Shown here piece after piece: positions 6,535 to 15,373 of a DNA stretch of 23,324 nt. The DNA lies in the IMG/VR virus record IMGVR_UViG_3300020051_000095, positions 1 to 23,324 of that record. The stretch is one strand, 5' to 3'. Both the position numbers and the translations under genes were made by a program. The stretch's first letter is position 1; the number at the start of each line of letters is the position of its first letter. A model generated the notes under the pieces. The model saw only the letters and a list, made by a program, of their open reading frames with translations, was not told the origin of the DNA and did no database searches. This stretch comes from a virus.

Positions 6535-7401
6535 ATGGCTATAACTGATCAACAATACTATAGTGACTCTTCAAACTGGGGAGAAAGTCAATATGTAAAG
6601 CTATCTGACGTTATTAACAACTTTATGATTATAAATGTTGGTGACGGAAAACTGATAAACGACATATCAAGATTTGATGTAATATTCCACGCCAAAAGAG
6701 GCTTACAGGAGCTTCATTACGACGCTTTAAAGGAGGTTAGGTCTATAGAGATGGAAATGCCTGAAACACTTCAGATAACTCTTCCTAGAGACTACGTTGG
6801 CTTAGTTAGATTATCATGGGTTGATGACAGAGGAAGACTTCATCCTATGACTACTGGAAAACACACTACAAGCGTAGATAAGGCGTTCCTCCAGGACGAC
6901 CAGGGTAATATATTATTTTCAGCAGGCGCTGATGGAGAAGCTCTTGAAGGTACTCCACTCATGGATATACGTAACATGCAGGTTGCTGAAAGTCAAGATA
7001 CGAGTAACGATCCACTAAACGATTTCATTCAAGGAGGTAGGTTTGGAATGGATACTTCTACTGCAAACATAAATGGTACTTACAATGTAAACAAAAGCTT
7101 AGGTGTTGTTAGATTCAGTTCTGACGTGTACGGGAAGCTGATAGTTATGGAGTACCTTACTGATGGTCTTTCAGATGTTTCTGATTCTGACTTAAAGCTT
7201 CACAAGTTTGCAGAGGACTTTTTATACAAGTATATTCTTTATGAAGTTGTAAGGAATAAGTTTGGTATACAAGAGTATATAGTAACCAGAGCAAAGAGAG
7301 ATTATTTCGCATCTTTAAAGAACACCAAGTTGAGAATGATGGATGTACATCCTTTGGATATACTTCAGGCAATGAAAGGTAAAAATAAGTGGATTAGATA
7401 A
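6535..7401 (+). CDS. Tail tube/connector protein candidate (T7 gp11-like role)
   Basis: A 288-residue protein. The N-terminal helical part contains VKLSDVINNFMIINVGDGKL and FHAKRGLQELHYDALKEV. A beta-rich middle follows (QITLPRDYVGLVRLSWVDD), and the C-terminal helix contains FAEDFLYKYILYEVVRNKFG. This order is what I remember for the connector or tail-tube A type structural protein of Bacteroidota podoviruses, which joins the portal assembly to the muzzle. It starts 3 bases after the previous stop, and its own stop overlaps the next start by one base (TAATG), so all three genes are probably translated together. A specific match to T7 gp11 or P22 gp4 cannot be shown from sequence reading alone. 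Confidence 0.6.
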   Translation: MAITDQQYYSDSSNWGESQYVKLSDVINNFMIINVGDGKLINDISRFDVIFHAKRGLQELHYDALKEVRSIEMEMPETLQITLPRDYVGLVRLSWVDDRGRLHPMTTGKHTTSVDKAFLQDDQGNILFSAGADGEALEGTPLMDIRNMQVAESQDTSNDPLNDFIQGGRFGMDTSTANINGTYNVNKSLGVVRFSSDVYGKLIVMEYLTDGLSDVSDSDLKLHKFAEDFLYKYILYEVVRNKFGIQEYIVTRAKRDYFASLKNTKLRMMDVHPLDILQAMKGKNKWIR

Positions 7402-10400
7402 TGAAGTTAAAAAACGTATTCACATCTGGAAAAATGAATAAAGACTCCGATGAGAGGCTTATTCAAAAGGGAGAGTATAGACATGCACTAAACGTTAGGG
7501 TTGCAAACTCTAATGGTTCAGATGTCGGAGCCGTTGAAAACGCGTTATCTAACGAGAAAATGTCTTCTATAAACTTTGGTAGCAATGCAAAAACCATTGG
7601 TACTGTAGAGGATGATGCCGCTAATAAGATTTACTGGTGTGTAGTTTCTGACAACGGATCATTTGTTTGTGAGTTCTCAAAAGACTCTAACCAAGCTGCA
7701 ATTATATTATCAGACAATAGATCTGGAGACGCAAACATTCTAGGTTTTACACCTGGGAATATGGTGGATATGTCTATCCTTAATGACGCTGAGAACAATA
7801 AAAACTTCTTGTTCTTAACAGACGGCGTGACTGAGCCAAAGTACTTTGATATAGATACGGCTAAAGCTCTAGCTAATAATACATTTACTTTTGAGGATGT
7901 ATCGCTAATTAAGCCAGCGCCATATACAGCTCCTTTAATAGAGCTACAAAAAACAGATAGCAAAGAAGAGAATTACTTGGAAACTAAGTTCTTCTCTTTT
8001 GCGTACAGGTACATATACGACAACAACGAGATAAGCGCAGTGTCTCCATTTTCTGAGTTTGCATTTATGCCTAACGAGTTTAGGTATGACTACAATTCAG
8101 GTACTAATAAGTCAATGGAGAATGATTACAACAAAGCAGTTGTATCTTTTAATACTGGATCTAAAAATGTAAAGAAAATAGAAATCCTTGCTAAACAGTC
8201 TGGTGACGATATTACTTATATTGTTGAGAAGTTAGACAAAGAAGACAAGGGATGGGTTGATAATTCTACTCAGAACTATACTTTCACAAACAGCAAAGTA
8301 TACAAAGCACTTCCAGAGTCACAGCTAAGAAGGGTTTACGACAACGTACCAAGAAAAGCTAAGACTTTAGATATAATAGGTAACAGGGTGGTTTTTGGTA
8401 ACTATACTGAGAACTATAATATGTCTAACAATGGTGTTAGCATAATTCCTAAGCTAGATTTATCTTACACCTCTGTATCAGGAAGCAAAGGAATACCTCA
8501 TAGAACCATGAAGACAAATATGGATTATGAGGTTGGTATTTCATATACTGATGGAAAAGGTAGAATGACTACTCCTTTTACAAGTGAAGGAAGTAGTGTT
8601 CACATTCCTATTACTAATAGTGATAAGAAGAATACTCTAAACGTAGAAATATCTTCAAAAGCACCAGACTGGGCGGAAGGTTATAGGTTTTTCATAAAAC
8701 AAAGTAAGAATGATTACGATGTAATATCTCCTGTTGTATTTTACAGAGAAGGAGTTTACGCATACATTAAGGTAGAAGGAGAAGATATAAACAAAGTAAA
8801 GGAAGGAGACTTCTTATTTGTAAAGTCTGACACTTCTGGTATAAGGAATAAACCTATAAAGATAAAGGTTCTTGAGTCTGAGAAAAAAGAAAGAAACTTT
8901 TTAACGGGTTCTAGCGAAGCGAATACAATTCAAGAGTCAGGAAACTACATAAAAGTAGATACAGAAGAAATTGCTTTAGACGAAACATCTATAGATACTT
9001 TTTTATATGAAGGTTATGCATTTAGATCTGATGGATCAGGAAATGACCTTCTAAATAATGTAGCTTATATAGATGCTCCTGTTTTTTACGGACAAGGAAG
9101 CGATGACTTGTCTGCTTCTGGTACTTACTCAAGTCCTACAGATACAAGGTATGAGATAAAAATATTTAGTGAAGGAACACCTGATAGAATTAAGTGGAGA
9201 TCTTTAGATTGTAAAAGTAATCTTACCACAGCATGGAACGACAATTCAGGAGCTGGTATACCAATAAGCGGTAGCATACCATTAAGTAATGGTGTTTCTA
9301 TTTCTTTCTCTTCCACTACAGGTCACACAATAGATGATAGATGGATAGTTAGCGCAAAGTCTTCTGCTAGACCTAATGAGTGGGATAATGGAGGAGATGT
9401 TGGAGATGACGGAAGAAGAGCCATTATGCTTTTCAAGTGTAAATCAAGTTCTGATGAGTCAATAAAATCAGGAGCTATAATAACACTAGAATATGACGAC
9501 ACTAAATCTGATGTCGATGTAGACAATACTGTTGGATATACTTATAACAGGTTTGTTGCTAGTGCTGATTACGCAAACTTAGAAGAGTGGTTTTGGGAAG
9601 ACAATGTAATATCTCAGATGGATTATCCTGAAGATATTGCTGATATAATGTTTAGGAGGGGTTCTTTAGCGGATCCAAGTGGAGAGCAGATGACAATCAA
9701 CCCTTCTGGAGATCTTTTCATGGCTATGCTTTCTCCTTGTAACTACGCTGGGGGTGCAAGAATAAGAATAGACATAGACTTTAAAATTATAGAGCTAGAT
9801 AATTCTATAATACTTGAGACTGATTATAAGTTTGCTAGTTCTGATGTTTTTTATGAGTTACCTAAGACATATGGTATATCTAATGGAAACCACTTAGGTG
9901 ATGTTAACCAAGTCTTTGGCACAACTAACGCAGTAGTTAACTTAGATCACTTTAATGCTTTTGGTTGGTATAATGGTTACGAGTCTATAAAAATTTACGA
10001 CGGATTTAATCAAAGTAGAATGCTTGTGGATTCCAAACCACTAGTCCCTCTAGATGATTATAAAGAAATAACCAGGGTTGCATCGCTAACTTATAGTGAT
10101 GTTTACGAGGTTACTACGTCTTATAATGGTATAAACGAGTTCAATTTATCCAAAGCAAACTACAAAGACTTAGATCCAAGTTTTGGTAAGATCGCAAAGA
10201 TTATATCAAGGAATGGAGACTTAACTGTTATACAAAATAACAGAGTATCTAGAGTTCTTTATAGTAAGAGTGTTATATATAATGCAGATGGCTCAGGAAA
10301 CGTGAGTCAGAACAACAACGTTCTAGGACAAGAGGTTCCTTACCAAGGAGAGTTTGGTATAACAAACAATATATACTCTGCTACTAAATGGAATGGAGAT

Positions 10401-11771
10401 ATATATTTTGCCGACGAGAGAAGAGGATCTGTAATTAGGCTAACTGATAACGGTATATTTCCAATATCAACATACGGCATGATTAGCTGGTTTAACGACC
10501 ACTTATATGTTGGTTCTAATGTTGTTTCTTCTTTTGACCCTAATAACGATCAATTTGTATTAAGTATATCTAACCCGAATATAGAATGGGTAGAAGATAC
10601 TTATGAATGTGCACAGCTAGTAACTACAACTACAACTGAAGCGCCAATAGTTGATGACACAAAATGTTTTGTTGATGTAGAGATACCTGAAAATCCTTGC
10701 TTAGTTGACTGGAGAGTTCACACTTACGTATGTCAAGATATTGAATGGATAGAAGATACTTACGAATGTAATATAGAAGTAGTGACATGGCTTGAAGACA
10801 CTTACGAATGTAATATAGAAGGAACTACGACAACGACGACTACTACAACGGCAGCTCCGACTACGACGACTACTACTACAGCAGCTCCGACAACGACGAC
10901 TACTACAACGGCAGCTCCGACTACGACGACTACCACTACAGCAGCTCCGACTACGACGACTACCACTACAGCAGCTCCGACTACGACGACTACCACTACA
11001 GCAGCTCCGACAACGACGACTACTACTACAGCAGCTCCGACTACGACGACTACTACAACAGCAGCTCCGACTACGACGACTACCACTACAGCAGCTCCGA
11101 CAACGACGACTACTACAACAGCAGCTCCGACTACGACGACTACTACAACAGCAGCTCCGACTACGACGACTACTACAACAGCAGCTCCTTCTTGCGATCC
11201 TTACGGAACACTAATTAATACTTTTTGCTTCAATTTTGATTACTATGGAGAATATGCTGATGGTTCTTGTGGAAGCTTCACTCAGTTAATAGAGTCTAAT
11301 AGTTCAGCATGCGGATACGAACCTCCGACAACGACGACTACCACTACAGCAGCTCCGACTACGACGACTACTACTACGGCAGCTCCGACTACGACGACTA
11401 CTACTACAGCAGCTCCGACTACAACGACTACTACTACAGCAGCTCCGACAACGACGACTACTACAGCAGCTCCGACTACTACGACAACTACTACAGCGGC
11501 TACTGTTTACCCTGGTGCAATAACCACACCTAATTCATTATCAGGTGATGCTTGTGCTTCATTTGCTTTTGATGGTGTTTGGTTTGCTACACCAACACCT
11601 GAAGATGGATCAAGAGTTTATACAGATCCTAGCGCATCAACACCATTTAATGGTGGTGACCAATGGTACGGAATAGATATGGATGGAAATGGTGTAGGAT
11701 GGGCTACTCAAATAACATCTTTCGGATATATGTATAACACAGTTGTCTGTACAGGCGGTGGAGGTTTTTAA
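7401..11771 (+). CDS. Muzzle-like tail protein with Thr-rich modular C-terminus
   Basis: A 1456-residue protein. Residues 11-51 (KMNKDSDERLIQKGEY, then SDVGAVENALSN) match the start I associate with the large muzzle or stabilisation protein of crAss-like and related podoviruses, which closes the end of the tail. Residues ~50-1060 are beta-rich with propeller-like repeats. Residues 1063-1137 hold four W-x4-Y-x-C motifs (W1063, W1104, W1116, W1130). Residues 1142-1263 are twelve TTTTTTTAAP-type units. Residues 1264-1309 are a four-Cys domain, 1310-1368 six more units, and 1369-1456 a two-Cys domain ending CTGGGGF. The segment expected to follow the propeller, with the FDEKxxGWxSF signature, is absent and appears instead as the gene at 14047. 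Thr-rich linkers on the virion exterior would place the small domains outside. The domain identities and surface exposure are inferred. Confidence 0.75.
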   Translation: MKLKNVFTSGKMNKDSDERLIQKGEYRHALNVRVANSNGSDVGAVENALSNEKMSSINFGSNAKTIGTVEDDAANKIYWCVVSDNGSFVCEFSKDSNQAAIILSDNRSGDANILGFTPGNMVDMSILNDAENNKNFLFLTDGVTEPKYFDIDTAKALANNTFTFEDVSLIKPAPYTAPLIELQKTDSKEENYLETKFFSFAYRYIYDNNEISAVSPFSEFAFMPNEFRYDYNSGTNKSMENDYNKAVVSFNTGSKNVKKIEILAKQSGDDITYIVEKLDKEDKGWVDNSTQNYTFTNSKVYKALPESQLRRVYDNVPRKAKTLDIIGNRVVFGNYTENYNMSNNGVSIIPKLDLSYTSVSGSKGIPHRTMKTNMDYEVGISYTDGKGRMTTPFTSEGSSVHIPITNSDKKNTLNVEISSKAPDWAEGYRFFIKQSKNDYDVISPVVFYREGVYAYIKVEGEDINKVKEGDFLFVKSDTSGIRNKPIKIKVLESEKKERNFLTGSSEANTIQESGNYIKVDTEEIALDETSIDTFLYEGYAFRSDGSGNDLLNNVAYIDAPVFYGQGSDDLSASGTYSSPTDTRYEIKIFSEGTPDRIKWRSLDCKSNLTTAWNDNSGAGIPISGSIPLSNGVSISFSSTTGHTIDDRWIVSAKSSARPNEWDNGGDVGDDGRRAIMLFKCKSSSDESIKSGAIITLEYDDTKSDVDVDNTVGYTYNRFVASADYANLEEWFWEDNVISQMDYPEDIADIMFRRGSLADPSGEQMTINPSGDLFMAMLSPCNYAGGARIRIDIDFKIIELDNSIILETDYKFASSDVFYELPKTYGISNGNHLGDVNQVFGTTNAVVNLDHFNAFGWYNGYESIKIYDGFNQSRMLVDSKPLVPLDDYKEITRVASLTYSDVYEVTTSYNGINEFNLSKANYKDLDPSFGKIAKIISRNGDLTVIQNNRVSRVLYSKSVIYNADGSGNVSQNNNVLGQEVPYQGEFGITNNIYSATKWNGDIYFADERRGSVIRLTDNGIFPISTYGMISWFNDHLYVGSNVVSSFDPNNDQFVLSISNPNIEWVEDTYECAQLVTTTTTEAPIVDDTKCFVDVEIPENPCLVDWRVHTYVCQDIEWIEDTYECNIEVVTWLEDTYECNIEGTTTTTTTTTAAPTTTTTTTAAPTTTTTTTAAPTTTTTTTAAPTTTTTTTAAPTTTTTTTAAPTTTTTTTAAPTTTTTTTAAPTTTTTTTAAPTTTTTTTAAPTTTTTTTAAPTTTTTTTAAPSCDPYGTLINTFCFNFDYYGEYADGSCGSFTQLIESNSSACGYEPPTTTTTTTAAPTTTTTTTAAPTTTTTTTAAPTTTTTTTAAPTTTTTTAAPTTTTTTTAATVYPGAITTPNSLSGDACASFAFDGVWFATPTPEDGSRVYTDPSASTPFNGGDQWYGIDMDGNGVGWATQITSFGYMYNTVVCTGGGGF
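10587..10820 (+). repeat. W-x4-Y-x-C coding repeats
   Basis: Four copies of an 8-residue motif (WVEDTYEC, WRVHTYVC, WIEDTYEC, WLEDTYEC) begin at 10587, 10710, 10746 and 10788. The last two are 42 bases apart and share the 20-base string CTTACGAATGTAATATAGAA, a recent duplication. The same motif recurs in the gene at 14047. Confidence 0.85.
10824..11189 (+). repeat. 30-base tandem array, 12 units (TTTTTTTAAP)
   Basis: Each 30-base unit encodes seven Thr, two Ala and a Pro; the first has nine Thr. Units differ only at synonymous third positions (aca, acg, act, acc and gca or gcg), so the protein repeat is kept exactly while the DNA varies. The array links the W-x4-Y-x-C region to the first Cys domain. 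Confidence 0.97.
11328..11504 (+). repeat. Second 30-base tandem array, 6 units
   Basis: The same unit as the array at 10824, on the other side of the four-Cys domain. One unit (around 11452-11478) is 27 bases, lacking one Thr codon, and the last ends AAT instead of AAP. The frame is preserved. The arrays are direct repeats of each other and share long near-identical stretches. Confidence 0.96.
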
Positions 11772-11779
11772 ATATTAAC

Positions 11780-11787
11780 TATCTTTG
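11780..11787 (+). promoter_or_regulatory. Bacteroidota-type promoter -7 element
   Basis: TATCTTTG lies 9 bases after the muzzle-like stop and 24 bases before the next ATG. It sits within TAACTATCTTTG, a 12-base string that occurs again upstream of the gene at 14047. The leader ACATAAAACAAACAAACAAC is A-rich with no Shine-Dalgarno sequence. No clear -33 TTG is seen. Confidence 0.65.
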
Positions 11788-11810
11788 TAACATAAAACAA
11801 ACAAACAACA

Positions 11811-12998
11811 ATGGCAAACACAGGAATTAAAACAGTCCTTACATTAAGAAAATATGTGGACGGCGTCGCGACAAGCGAGGTTAAAATCAATGATCCGGCA
11901 GATCCAGACTACATTGCTCCTTATGAGGATTTAGTGGATTGCCCAGTTGAAGGTACTACAACTACTAGTACTACAACTACTAGTACTACAACTACTAGTA
12001 CTACTACTGAAGGTACAACTACTACTGAAGGTACGACTACTACTGAAGGTACGACTACTACTGAAGGTACAACTACTACTGAAGGTACAACTACTACTTC
12101 AGATCCTTATATCTATTTTTATATTCACGGATGTCCAGGGTCAACTTATGAGAATAGAGATGCTGTAGTTAGATCTACCGATGGATCTTGGCCTGATAAT
12201 GGAGTTGGATCTAATGCGAATGTTATATCTGAATTTGGTTCTACTTTCTATTATAATGGACCAGCTACAGAGGCGTTATGGAACACTACTGATAGCTCTA
12301 ATGCAGATGGTGATATGTGGACAGTTTGGGGTCATCAGAAAGAAGTTGGATCACCAACTCAAGTTGGATGTTCTGCAACAACTACTACTGAAGGCACAAC
12401 TACTACTGAAGGCACAACTACTACTGAAGGCACAACTACTACTGAAGGTACAACCACTACTAGTACAACTACTAGTACAACTACTAGTACAACTACTACT
12501 ACAGTTGCTCCAGACCAATGTACTGGCTATTACTTAATTACTGGATCAGGTCAGTCTTATGGTACTTTCACTTGGATAGACTGTAACACTGGAGTTGAGC
12601 AAAGCGAAACATTAGGTGCAGACGCTGCTTTCGGTCCTATCTGTGCTCAATCAGAACCAGTTATCACAAATGCTGTTAACGCTTCTTTAACTAATGAAGG
12701 TGTTTGTGGAACAATAACTACTACAACTACTACAACTACAGCAGCTCCAAGTTTAACATCTTTCTTTACGACATCTAGTGCAGCTGTTGATGGTAACAGT
12801 GCATGTGAACAGCTAACTGGAACGGAAAGATGGCATGATGGAAACGATACACTTCCAGCTGTTGGAGACACTGTTTATTTAAACAACAGTGCCGGAGGAG
12901 GTACTTTAGGGGCTGGTTACTGGAACACAGACTCTGGAGTATGGTATGAAACAAATTCTAGTGGATCTGTTATAGATGTAGGTCCTTGTGGAATTTAA
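11811..12998 (+). CDS. Thr-rich modular virion protein
   Basis: A 395-residue protein built as modules on linkers. Residues 1-48 form a short N-terminal segment containing NDPADPDYIAPYEDL, which I recall near the ends of phage tail proteins. Residues 49-97 are a linker of TTTTS and TTTTEG units. Residues 98-189 are domain A with two Cys, 190-231 a second linker, and 232-302 domain B with four Cys. Residues 303-313 are a short linker ending AAPS, and 314-395 are domain C with two Cys. Domain C shares spacing features with the last domain of the muzzle-like protein. There is no signal peptide, so export is unlikely and a virion role is probable. It has its own promoter and ends before a hairpin and terminator. 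The function of the domains is unknown; host-surface binding is a guess. Confidence 0.7.
   Translation: MANTGIKTVLTLRKYVDGVATSEVKINDPADPDYIAPYEDLVDCPVEGTTTTSTTTTSTTTTSTTTEGTTTTEGTTTTEGTTTTEGTTTTEGTTTTSDPYIYFYIHGCPGSTYENRDAVVRSTDGSWPDNGVGSNANVISEFGSTFYYNGPATEALWNTTDSSNADGDMWTVWGHQKEVGSPTQVGCSATTTTEGTTTTEGTTTTEGTTTTEGTTTTSTTTSTTTSTTTTTVAPDQCTGYYLITGSGQSYGTFTWIDCNTGVEQSETLGADAAFGPICAQSEPVITNAVNASLTNEGVCGTITTTTTTTTAAPSLTSFFTTSSAAVDGNSACEQLTGTERWHDGNDTLPAVGDTVYLNNSAGGGTLGAGYWNTDSGVWYETNSSGSVIDVGPCGI
11955..12101 (+). repeat. Thr-rich linker array 1 (TTTTS then TTTTEG units)
   Basis: Three 15-base units (ACTACAACTACTAGT) are followed by units of 18 bases (ACAACTACTACTGAAGGT type) that encode TTTTEG. 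Changes between units are synonymous. The linker joins the N-terminal segment to domain A. Confidence 0.93.
12378..12503 (+). repeat. Thr-rich linker array 2 (TTTTEG then TTS units)
   Basis: Four TTTTEG-coding 18-base units, mostly with GGC for Gly where array 1 has GGT, are followed by 12-base ACTAGTACAACT units. The order of the two unit classes is reversed compared with array 1. The array joins domain A to domain B. Confidence 0.93.
12717..12749 (+). repeat. Short Thr-rich linker 3 (T8-AAP)
   Basis: Eight Thr codons followed by Ala-Ala-Pro encode the same linker class as the muzzle-like protein (TTTTTTTAAP), not the TTTTEG class used elsewhere in this gene. It precedes the C-terminal domain, as in the muzzle-like protein. 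Confidence 0.85.
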
Positions 12999-13010
12999 TA
13001 ATTAATCATT

Positions 13011-13053
13011 TAGATATGTCGAGTAGGGTGGAAACGCCCTACTTGTCTATCTA
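13011..13053 (+). other. Stable hairpin before the terminator
   Basis: GTAGGG (13023-13028) pairs with CCCTAC (13037-13042), extended inward by two pairs around a GAAA loop. An outer stem TAGATA (13011-13016) pairs with TATCTA (13048-13053). It resembles the two-level hairpin after the capsid gene. No T run follows, so it may protect the 3' end of the mRNA. Confidence 0.6.
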
Positions 13054-13062
13054 TTAAAATTC

Positions 13063-13085
13063 AAAAGCCTCTTACGGGGCTTTTT
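13063..13085 (+). terminator. Intrinsic terminator before the glycosyltransferase gene
   Basis: AAAAGCCTC (13063-13071) pairs with GGGGCTTTT (13076-13084), with one U-G, around a TTAC loop. The stem runs into TTTTT (13081-13085). The next ATG is only 8 bases beyond the T run. Confidence 0.85.
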
Positions 13086-13092
13086 ATTTACT

Positions 13093-13998
13093 ATGAAATA
13101 TGTATGCGCCCAACCGGCAACTCTTTATTTTGCATGGCAAGTTGATGTTTTAGTTAATAGCCTTATAAAAAATAATGTCAAACCAAATGACATACAAGTT
13201 TTGTACTCCAGACAGGGGAATATTATTGAGCCTATTCATAGATTAATAAATAAGTATCCAGGGGTGGGGTTTTTTTTCTATAAAGACGATAGAAAATATA
13301 AGAACTATATACCATCTATAAAACAACACATGCTACATAAACATTATCTCGCTAACCCATATATGGAGAATGAAGATATATTCCTTGTAGATTCTGATAT
13401 ATGTTTAACAAAACCATTAGATTTTACAAATCTATTAAAGGACGACATATGGTATGTAAGTGATACAGTAAGCTATATAGGCTATGATTATATACTATCA
13501 AAAGGAAGAGACATACTAGAGCCTATGCTAGAGATTGGAGGCATATCTGAAGACATAGTTAAGTCAAATCAGAATGCATCTGGAGGAGCTCAGTACTTAT
13601 ATAAGAAAGTAAAGGCTGAGTTTTGGGAGGAAGTAGTTGATATGTCTCACGAGATATATATGAAAATATCGGAAATAAGTAGAATAAAGAAAGAAGCTGA
13701 TCCTTCTTATCACGAGATACAAATATGGACTGCCGAGATGTGGGCTATGTTGTGGGTGGCTTGGAAACAAGGCATAATGACTTGCGTAAGCAGTAAGTTG
13801 GATTTCACCTGGGCAACTGATCCAATTACTTATTGGGGCAAGAGAGCTATATACCACAATGCTGGAGCTACTAGTGATAAAGACGGTATGTTTTACAAAG
13901 GAAAATACACTTCAGAGTTTCCACCAGACAACTTGGATATAAAAAACACTAGAGCTTGTCATTATTACTACCAATTAATAAAGGAAACACTTTACTAA
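13093..13998 (+). CDS. GT-A-fold glycosyltransferase, HPAT/Ser-galactosyltransferase-like
   Basis: A 301-residue protein. D100-S101-D102 within NEDIFLVDSDICLTKPLDF is a DxD motif that binds the metal and nucleotide sugar in GT-A glycosyltransferases. The N-terminus with YFAWQ (12-16), PSIKQHM (74-80) before the DxD, and EIQIWTAEMWA (208-218) resembles the pattern I remember for hydroxyproline arabinosyltransferases and peptidyl-serine galactosyltransferases. His255 in IYHNAG could be the third metal ligand. There is no signal peptide or membrane segment, so it acts in the host cytoplasm. It follows a terminator by 8 bases with no visible promoter, so it is probably expressed at low level by read-through. 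Its place beside two Thr-rich proteins suggests it glycosylates them, which is inference. Alternatives are modification of host surface glycans or another phage substrate. Confidence 0.72.
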   Translation: MKYVCAQPATLYFAWQVDVLVNSLIKNNVKPNDIQVLYSRQGNIIEPIHRLINKYPGVGFFFYKDDRKYKNYIPSIKQHMLHKHYLANPYMENEDIFLVDSDICLTKPLDFTNLLKDDIWYVSDTVSYIGYDYILSKGRDILEPMLEIGGISEDIVKSNQNASGGAQYLYKKVKAEFWEEVVDMSHEIYMKISEISRIKKEADPSYHEIQIWTAEMWAMLWVAWKQGIMTCVSSKLDFTWATDPITYWGKRAIYHNAGATSDKDGMFYKGKYTSEFPPDNLDIKNTRACHYYYQLIKETLY

Positions 13999-14046: not shown

Positions 14047-14658
14047 ATGGCTAACTACACTTTAACTTTCGATGAGAAGATAAATGGATGGACATCTTTC
14101 CATTCTTACGAGCCAGAGATGATGGTCAACCTTAACAATGATTTCTTTTCGTTTAAGGATGGTCAGCTATATATCCACGAAAGAGACACAAATATTAGGA
14201 ACCAGTACTACGAGCAACCATCTGCCCCTACAGAGATAGAGCTGGTATTAAATGACAGTCCTTCTGACGTTAAGATATTCAAGACTATAGAAATAGAGGG
14301 TAGTACAGGGAAGTGGGATACAACAGTTGATACTAATTTAGAGTCAGGAAACATACCTAAAGACAAGTACAAGAACAAAGAAGGAATGTTCTACGAGTAC
14401 ATAAGAAGAAATGAGTCTGACGAAATAGATCCAACCTTATTATCAGTACAAGGTATAGGTGTTGTTCAGAACATAGAAGAAGGAGAAGTAGAATGGCAAG
14501 AGTACATAGCTACTTGTGATCAAGACAACGTAGACTGGTTGCCTGAAGAATATATATGTAACTACAGCTGTGGTGAAGAAGCTATAATATGGCTAGAGAA
14601 TACGTATAATTGCTCAGTAGAACAATGGTTAGAATATAATTACAGTTGCAATGGCTAA
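14047..14658 (+). CDS. Separately encoded muzzle C-terminal domain with W-x4-Y-x-C repeats
   Basis: A 203-residue protein. It starts almost directly with a segment (TLTFDEKINGWTSFHSYEPE) followed by FSFKDGQLYIHERD, then PSDVKIFKTIEIEGS. I recall this order as the region that closes the large muzzle or stabilisation protein of related phages, where it is part of one long chain. Here it stands alone, 2.3 kb behind a muzzle-like gene that lacks it. The last ~55 residues hold three W-x4-Y-x-C motifs (W165, W183, W194) and one degenerate copy (W151), matching the four in the muzzle-like protein. The likely role is assembly with the muzzle in the tail. It has its own promoter and overlaps the next gene by 8 bases. 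Confidence 0.68.
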   Translation: MANYTLTFDEKINGWTSFHSYEPEMMVNLNNDFFSFKDGQLYIHERDTNIRNQYYEQPSAPTEIELVLNDSPSDVKIFKTIEIEGSTGKWDTTVDTNLESGNIPKDKYKNKEGMFYEYIRRNESDEIDPTLLSVQGIGVVQNIEEGEVEWQEYIATCDQDNVDWLPEEYICNYSCGEEAIIWLENTYNCSVEQWLEYNYSCNG

Positions 14659-14953
14659 ATATAGTTTTAAAGAAGTACCACACAACATATCTATAGGCGA
14701 TGTTCTATACCACGAATACGCTGGAGAATATGTTAAGGTTGGTCAAATAATAGATAAGGGAGTTGACTTTGTAGAAGTTGATAATAACTTAGTATCTGTT
14801 CCTGAGAATTCATTTATGTTTGTAGCTAAAAATACTGTAGCTGAAAGCTATGGTTTAAAAGGTTATTACGCTAAAATAAAACTGAGTAATACAGAGACCA
14901 GACCAGTTGAATTATTTGCAGTAAATAGCGATATAAGCAAAAGCTTTCCTTAA
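14651..14953 (+). CDS. Small conserved phage structural protein
   Basis: A 100-residue protein overlapping the previous stop by 8 bases, so it is probably translationally coupled. The N-terminal half has a small beta fold (GDVLYHEYAGEYVKVGQI). The C-terminal half, with YGLKGYYAKIKLSN then VELFAVNSDISKSFP, looks like a pattern I have seen in small proteins near tail genes of Bacteroidota phages. There is no signal peptide or membrane segment. A virion or capsid-decoration role is possible from its position; its function is unknown. Confidence 0.65.
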   Translation: MAKYSFKEVPHNISIGDVLYHEYAGEYVKVGQIIDKGVDFVEVDNNLVSVPENSFMFVAKNTVAESYGLKGYYAKIKLSNTETRPVELFAVNSDISKSFP

Positions 14954-14971: not shown

Positions 14972-15373
14972 ATGAGTTTTGATGTTAGAGCAGTAGTTGA
15001 TAGTGACTACGACAACATACTGGTAAACTGGTGGAAAGATTGGGGATGGACACCACCTCCAAAAGATTTTTTACCTAGCACTGGTCTAATTGTTAGTAAG
15101 GATGGAGTTGACATATGCGGTGGATTTCTTTACTTAACAAACTCAAAAGTAGCTCTAACAGAGTTTGTAGTCTCTAACAAGGATTACAAAGAAAAAGACA
15201 GGTCTGATGCAATACAATTTTTATTGGACTGCATAGTTGTTCTAGCTGAAGATAATGGGTGTAAGTACGCTCACGTGATCTTAAAGAACAAGAGTCTTGT
15301 TGAGAAATATAAAGAAACCGGGTACATTGTATCTGACGATAACGTAACTGAAATGGTAAAGGTATGGCAATAG
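14972..15373 (+). CDS. GNAT-like acetyltransferase-fold protein
   Basis: A 133-residue protein of GNAT size. Residues 1-30 (VDSDYDNILVNWWKDWGW) form the first helix. A beta-strand region follows (GLIVSKDGVDICGGFLYL), then the central strand VALTEFVVSN with KDYKEKDRSDAIQFLLDCIV as the following helix. The C-terminal strands are KYAHVILKNKSLVEKYKETGY. The usual R/Q-x-x-G-x-G/A acetyl-CoA loop is replaced by KEKDRSD, so catalysis is uncertain. Proteins of this type next to tail and internal virion genes are known in T7-like phages (gp13 is a GNAT-like example), where the role is in virion assembly. Its end overlaps the next gene by 10 bases, so the two are probably coupled. Confidence 0.7.
   Translation: MSFDVRAVVDSDYDNILVNWWKDWGWTPPPKDFLPSTGLIVSKDGVDICGGFLYLTNSKVALTEFVVSNKDYKEKDRSDAIQFLLDCIVVLAEDNGCKYAHVILKNKSLVEKYKETGYIVSDDNVTEMVKVWQ

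Follow-up and report, generated by a model that had tools for sequence, protein, structure and literature searches.

Threonine tracts beside a predicted phage glycosyltransferase

We analysed a 23,324-nucleotide stretch of viral DNA (hereafter the window), a 23.3-kb IMG/VR fragment (record IMGVR_UViG_3300020051_000095) of a crassvirus-like (Bacteroidota) phage, whose genes run in the order portal (phrog_6547), scaffold-like protein, capsid protein (phrog_13704), ring-type proteins and muzzle, as assigned from Pfam and PHROG profiles. At the muzzle, two adjacent open reading frames (ORFs) carry long threonine tracts, and the gene that follows them encodes a protein predicted to adopt the GT-A glycosyltransferase (GT) fold. 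We think that these genes probably constitute a two-part module for self-glycosylation of the virion, consisting of a phage GT and of poly-Thr tracts on the phage's own virion proteins. The features concerned are the following.

7401–11771, + strand: 1456-aa ORF for the N-terminal part of the muzzle (the tail-tip protein), to which a Thr-rich tail has been added at the C-terminus (PF25731, phrog_14478)
10623–11495, + strand: the Thr-rich tail of this part, 19 runs of at least four Thr, mainly in TTTTTTTAAP units (run count, repeat analysis)
11811–12998, + strand: second Thr-rich protein, 395 aa, with TTTT-EG and TTT-S repeats and small Cys-containing domains between them
11955–12740, + strand: Thr tracts of the second protein, 15 runs of at least four (run count)
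13093–13998, + strand: GT-A glycosyltransferase, 301 aa, candidate O-glycosyltransferase of the Thr tracts (phrog_4417, AlphaFold2 model)
13390–13398, + strand: codons of the DxD motif, D100-S-D102, whose Asp residues are predicted to bind metal and nucleotide-sugar and are invariant in all 17 homologues aligned
13855–13857, + strand: codon of H255, the His of an IxHNAG motif, invariant in the same 17

The Thr-run proteins named in the original prediction for this locus are real: their 19 and 15 runs compare with means of 0.56 and 1.35 in residue shuffles (maximum 5). The tracts begin about 200 nt earlier (10623) than the start of 10824 given at that time. Within the muzzle tail, 16 of the 19 runs are exactly seven long, and 30-nt tandem arrays extend over 10828–11188 and 11323–11501 at 90–93% identity. 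The fifteen full 30-nt TTTTTTTAAP units comprise 10 distinct DNA sequences in which every difference is synonymous, which points to an array kept as protein and speaks against plain DNA slippage. The second Thr-rich protein, whose N-terminus is similar in the relatives L005, L014 and L032, has no match in Pfam or PHROG. An antisense ORF (10802–11086, poly-Val) was discarded as an artefact of the Thr repeats read backwards.

The enzyme matches phrog_4417, a family of 'unknown function', at 5e-73 (residues 1–299 to profile positions 1–291 of 293), as do gp51 of phage phiFL1A (4e-156) and the L155 homologue (2e-116). Its AlphaFold2 model is a confident GT-A fold (predicted local distance difference test score 94.6, predicted template modelling score 0.90), and D100, D102 and H255 are kept in 17 homologues, down to 30% identity, so that the earlier identification of a GT-A enzyme with a DxD motif stands; H255 is plausibly a third metal ligand, as in GT8-type enzymes. 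The closest solved folds are human glycogenin-1 (Z 16.1, root-mean-square deviation 2.9 over 202 residues), LgtC (14.8), UGGT and pneumococcal GlyE (14.3). Glycogenin, LgtC and GlyE, all GT8, share with the window enzyme the GT-A fold and the DxD motif at Z 14–16 over ~200–230 residues, but only ~9–13% identity. The likeness is one of fold only: 17 members gave no match to the CAZy GT8 profile Glyco_transf_8 at E up to 1, no member tested matched any Pfam or NCBIfam family, and searches of PDB sequences with the enzyme, as single sequence and as profile, returned nothing credible. Resemblance to hydroxyproline arabinosyltransferases or serine galactosyltransferases, part of the original prediction, found no support, neither family giving a profile match or appearing among the top PDB fold matches. 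A retaining enzyme that passes sugar from a nucleotide-sugar to a hydroxyl group on a protein could have this modelled fold and, as glycogenin glycosylates protein, we count the fold in favour of protein self-glycosylation.

Tags and enzyme change together in tail and capsid proteins

In prophages of the Firmicutes, the start of the GT gene mostly lies no more than about 70 nt from a structural gene that encodes a protein with a terminal tag, FQAVFGKPYPSTTTTTTTTTSA for example. We trimmed the tag off one Firmicutes major tail protein (MTP) family, phrog_88, searched viral contigs with the core alone, and scored tag and GT afterwards. Across 66 phrog_88 loci, 16 had both a C-terminal poly-Thr tag and the GT, 50 had neither, and none was discordant (Fisher 1e-15, uncorrected for kinship); untagged relatives end in short tails, for example PEGA. 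On the MTP tree, tag and GT are gained and lost together, each changing 8 times at identical places, with at least three of the changes forced by well-supported branches. Here and below, counts are of contigs and not of independent events, ORF calls are mechanical, and the largest sets are the 80 best matches of a scan, not a random sample.

Concordance is nearly as strict for a second protein of these loci, the major capsid protein (MCP), which is encoded ~2.1 kb upstream with several untagged genes between. It is tagged in 13 GT-bearing loci and in 0 of 38 loci without the GT; the sole discordant locus, L295, has a broken capsid frame. GT-bearing loci carry two or three tagged C-termini each, and 28 of 30 loci without the GT carry none. 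Hitch-hiking of the tag with the GT was considered and rejected, MCPs about 2 kb away being tagged in the same genomes. Lactococcal phage 1706 has such an arrangement: its capsid protein (orf10) ends in KTTTTTTTTTHHD and its major structural protein (orf13) in VTTTTTTTTTTHHD, and its GT is orf14.

The MTP gene of three phages, SA2 and RQ1 of Staphylococcus and TPWB06 of Arcanobacterium, ends ACT ACT CCC TAA (L042:7667–7930, L489:5620–5931, L493:5720–5926). A +1 shift at CCC-TAA would add a long poly-Thr tail to the MTP, which looks like programmed frameshifting.

Tagged proteins across phage lineages

Poly-Thr tracts also cluster around the enzyme in a set of 190 GT loci taken from viral contigs, GenBank phages and bacterial genomes. 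Under a strict definition, 61, 58 and 42 loci have a tract in the successive 1-kb bins of the first 3 kb from the GT, falling to 1–8 per bin at 3–10 kb, and tracts of nine other residues show no peak near the GT in the same 190 loci. The tagged proteins are non-homologous, comprising the crassvirus muzzle, tail proteins (phrog_88, phrog_238, phrog_6686) and head proteins (phrog_10, phrog_840, phrog_909). Thr-rich tails lie near the GT in 17 of 17 GenBank phages sampled (Herelleviridae, Andrewesvirinae, lactococcal 1706, bIL285, phiFL1A, iLp84 and others); in the two whose enzymes diverge most, the repeat itself differs, being TTVKPTTVAP in 521B and TETQTQTQ / TTTETQTQTQNPV in LP65. One viral collection alone holds at least 596 related stretches.

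Relatives of the window virus were surveyed by anchoring on the capsid protein and requiring ~10 kb downstream. All 11 contigs with the GT have Thr tracts, against one of 25 without it, a marginal case. For L243 the tract was noticed first, in an initial piece without a GT, and the GT was then located in the remainder of the record; as the tract preceded the discovery of its enzyme, this case was in effect a prediction.

Chromosomal relatives of the enzyme

Homologues of the GT in Bacteroidota chromosomes (GT loci L128–L201) are mostly longer, at 450–830 aa, and sit beside genes for modification and export of peptides: LanC-like proteins, lantibiotic dehydratase, C39-type exporters and thioredoxin-like proteins, as in clusters for ribosomally synthesized and post-translationally modified peptides (RiPPs). 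About a dozen loci have GG-leader precursor peptides upstream of the GT, and in two the precursors have cores of six to seven Thr and lie just before it (L193:9636–9872, L196:9609–9857), suggesting glycosylated RiPPs. Because these cousins occur in lanthipeptide-like clusters, peptides are the likely substrate, and a peptide side chain the likely acceptor, of the whole GT family. Pfam and PHROG scans found no RiPP precursor, modification or export genes in the window, where the candidate acceptors are virion proteins.

A model for virion self-glycosylation and its alternatives

Taken together, the concordance of tag and GT in MTPs and MCPs, the relatives of the window virus, the unrelated tagged proteins and the RiPP context strongly support self-glycosylation. 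In this model, the phrog_4417-family enzyme would act in the host cytoplasm, before or during virion assembly, taking a sugar from a nucleotide-sugar of the host and attaching it to hydroxyls of Thr (and Ser) in disordered poly-Thr tracts, which the phage has added to virion proteins exposed at the surface. The acceptors in the window would be the C-terminal tail of the muzzle N-terminal part and the second Thr-rich protein; in other phages, major capsid and major tail proteins would accept the sugar on their C-terminal tags. The product would be clustered O-glycans forming a dense, mucin-like coat at the tagged sites, covering the outer surface of the head and tail tube in Firmicutes phages and, in the window virus, forming tail-tip stalks that bear small Cys-rich or adhesin-like modules between tracts. 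Such a coat might serve solubility, protease resistance, glycan-mediated attachment or immune shielding. Immune shielding by virion glycans has been reported for mycobacteriophages; for a virus whose hosts are aquatic bacteria, shielding from antibodies is not the purpose we would pick.

Several observations weigh against this model. Some 60 viral records carry a C-terminal tag of seven Thr (T7) on an ORF of at least 90 aa; about 20 of them have a member of the GT family and about 40, some of them fragments, do not, and a Pfam/PHROG scan of nearby genes, covering 90 neighbours of the T7-tagged records without the GT, found no other GT. Poly-Thr may therefore exist unmodified or be modified by other enzymes, and in the T7-tagged viruses without this GT one of the two must apply. 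About 10 GT-bearing viral loci have no strong Thr tract nearby; several such contigs (L006, L019, L023, L024) are incomplete or have a tract just past 5 kb. Within the window's own clade only two or three independent changes support the link between tract and GT, which makes that survey weak when taken alone, so that the MTP and MCP surveys carry the argument. The enzyme could also act on a folded part of the same virion proteins and not on Thr. Finally, what the analysis shows directly is the tracts, the modelled GT fold with its conserved DxD and His, and the repeated strict co-occurrence of tract and enzyme; catalysis, Thr as the acceptor, the kind of sugar and the role of the coat are inferred from these.

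Tags of at least seven Thr also occur at the C-termini of tail or fibre-type proteins in L367, L378, L381, L388, L391 and other records in which this GT is not found.

Phage GTs that act on DNA or on the host surface are well known, and the window enzyme might likewise modify phage DNA, the host cell wall or lipopolysaccharide, or a host protein, adjoining structural genes by chance while the Thr tracts serve as unmodified flexible linkers; the Thr-tagged viruses without this GT fit such a picture. We judge it unlikely, since unmodified linkers need not come and go with the enzyme, whereas in MTPs no locus has tag or GT without the other and in MCPs, 2 kb away, the match is nearly as complete, unrelated proteins are tagged in unrelated phages, and cousins of the GT sit in RiPP clusters. 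Nor do the tracts look like functionless expansions of triplet repeats in low-complexity regions. The near-identical 30-nt arrays do show recent expansion, but the fifteen units differ only synonymously, many lineages have GT-dependent tracts in the same place, at the C-terminus, and other homopolymers are not enriched, all of which makes this explanation most improbable.

A closer alternative keeps the virion proteins as targets and moves the modified site, for example to Ser between Thr runs or to a folded domain, leaving the Thr tract as a spacer or a docking site for the enzyme. Several tracts are indeed mixed Ser/Thr (L004, L017, L049), and the acceptor residue cannot be read from sequence. 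Many tags, however, consist of Thr alone at the very end of the protein (for example PYPSTTTTTTTTTSA and KTTTTTTTTTHHD) and their unrelated carriers share little else, so we regard modification elsewhere as quite unlikely. Self-glycosylation of the tracts leads to a broader proposition, towards which we lean with less confidence: that poly-Thr is a portable glycosylation code, in which a stand-alone bacterial-type GT reads bare poly-Thr on any carrier, and phages of Firmicutes and Bacteroidota need only acquire the enzyme and extend Thr tags in order to coat their capsid, tail tube or tail tip. Enzyme and tag would then co-evolve (TTTTTT, TTVAP, TETQTQ), and the enzyme's ancestry would probably be shared with the peptide-modifying GTs of RiPP clusters.

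Relation to known virion glycosylation

To our knowledge, phage virion glycosylation has so far been described for a few mycobacteriophages. According to two reports, phage-encoded GTs of Che8, Corndog and Myrna glycosylate the C-termini of capsid and tail-tube subunits (PMC12619734, PMC12363180), the same two proteins that bear the poly-Thr tag in Firmicutes phages. Our candidate tags likewise lie at C-termini, on the MCP, MTP or connector in GT-bearing phages and on the muzzle N-terminal part in the window. The outcome for the virion would thus match that in mycobacteriophages, but the enzymes, the acceptor code and the host range differ. The Che8 enzymes gp108–110 belong to phrog_8858, phrog_1721 and phrog_854, not phrog_4417, and no poly-Thr tag is present on the Che8 capsid and tail proteins, whose last residues are VVFNKTGS and QYSDGS; the system proposed here pairs a single GT8-like enzyme with transplantable poly-Thr tags in phages of Bacteroidota and Firmicutes, including a crassvirus tail tip.

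Seen against this background, the original prediction fares well in its core. The idea that the phage glycosylates Thr tracts of its own virion gains strong comparative support, and the expected co-occurrence of Thr-rich proteins with the enzyme appeared in the surveys, but 'tail linkers' is too generic a label, the first protein being a crassvirus muzzle. Homologues mainly beside capsid genes had been taken as a sign of another target; that arrangement occurs in part, and those capsid proteins are themselves Thr-tagged. The claim of an undescribed system needs dividing: we found no description of poly-Thr or Thr-rich tags paired with phage GTs in the literature outside subscription papers, yet mycobacteriophages are already known to glycosylate the C-termini of capsid and tail-tube proteins with enzymes of their own.

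If the model is right, virion glycosylation by tag and enzyme is probably widespread and recognizable from sequence alone, and the large 'unknown' family phrog_4417, including the lactococcal 'prophage pi2 protein 34', acquires a function that can be tested in cultured dairy phages. It would also supply a small enzyme, active in the cytoplasm, and an acceptor tag with which mucin-like glycopeptides could be made, and would let one ask in a natural setting what virion sugar does for a phage outside animals.

Organization of the split muzzle gene

Judged by the capsid protein, the cultured phages most closely related to the window virus infect Maribacter, Flavobacterium and Cellulophaga (best ~52–55% identity). 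Its muzzle is not a single polypeptide but three ORFs, split at two sites, with the second Thr-rich ORF and the enzyme gene lying between the N-terminal part and the remaining two.

14047–14658, + strand: middle part of the muzzle, ending in W-x-x-x-T-Y-x-C repeats (PF25729 crAss_MUZ_C, 7e-16; PF25731 positions 1187–1223)
14651–14953, + strand: last part of the muzzle (phrog_18548 positions 146–240), after the second split site, with an 8-nt overlap with 14047–14658

In the N-terminal part, residues 915–1058 match positions 1042–1188 of the PF25731 crAss_MUZ profile (9.3e-6), and the ORF matches phrog_14478 at 1e-246; with the crAss_MUZ_C match and the position after the ring proteins, these identify a crassvirus muzzle. 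The counterpart in phiCrAss001 is the tail-tip muzzle protein gp44, of the same families (PF25731/PF25729) and in the same place after the ring proteins, whose length varies by surface insertions (PMC10172136). Unlike gp44, the window muzzle is divided among three ORFs, its first part has a Thr-rich C-terminal tail, and extra genes stand between the parts.

The muzzle is one ORF of ~1,300 aa, without Thr tracts and without the GT, in L015, L035 and L036, and the last part is fused to the middle part in L005 (242 aa) and L015. At the first break, the intact L015 reads ...GQVITSIYGS-YSLSFNEQTNGWVSF..., and the window reads ...DQFVLSISNPNIEWVEDTYEC, with Thr next, in one ORF and MANYTLTFDEKINGWTSF... 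in the next, so that the break appears to fall between neighbouring strands; the site could not be placed by sequence on the solved gp44 structure, there being no PDB match. We considered the GT/Thr cassette as the cause of the split and rejected it, the muzzle being split in most relatives without the GT as well.

Throughout the window's group (L002, L013, L017, L029, L244 and others, relatives without the GT included), breaks in the muzzle gene occur at one or two fixed positions, with display-type genes in the gaps; the split muzzle looks like a general display platform. At its second split site, L013 has Thr repeats and a BspA-like (FNQDISNWDVSNV) domain. Next to the muzzle, in relatives with and without the GT, is kept a 133-aa ORF (14972–15373, phrog_17252) that is GNAT-like by eye, with no Pfam match. 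The W-x-x-x-T-Y-x-C repeats close two of the muzzle parts, at 10560–10821 (EWVEDTYEC, EWIEDTYEC, TWLEDTYEC) and 14515–14655 (IWLENTYNC, QWLEYNYSC), and motifs resembling them stand beside Thr tags in L017, L372 and L392.

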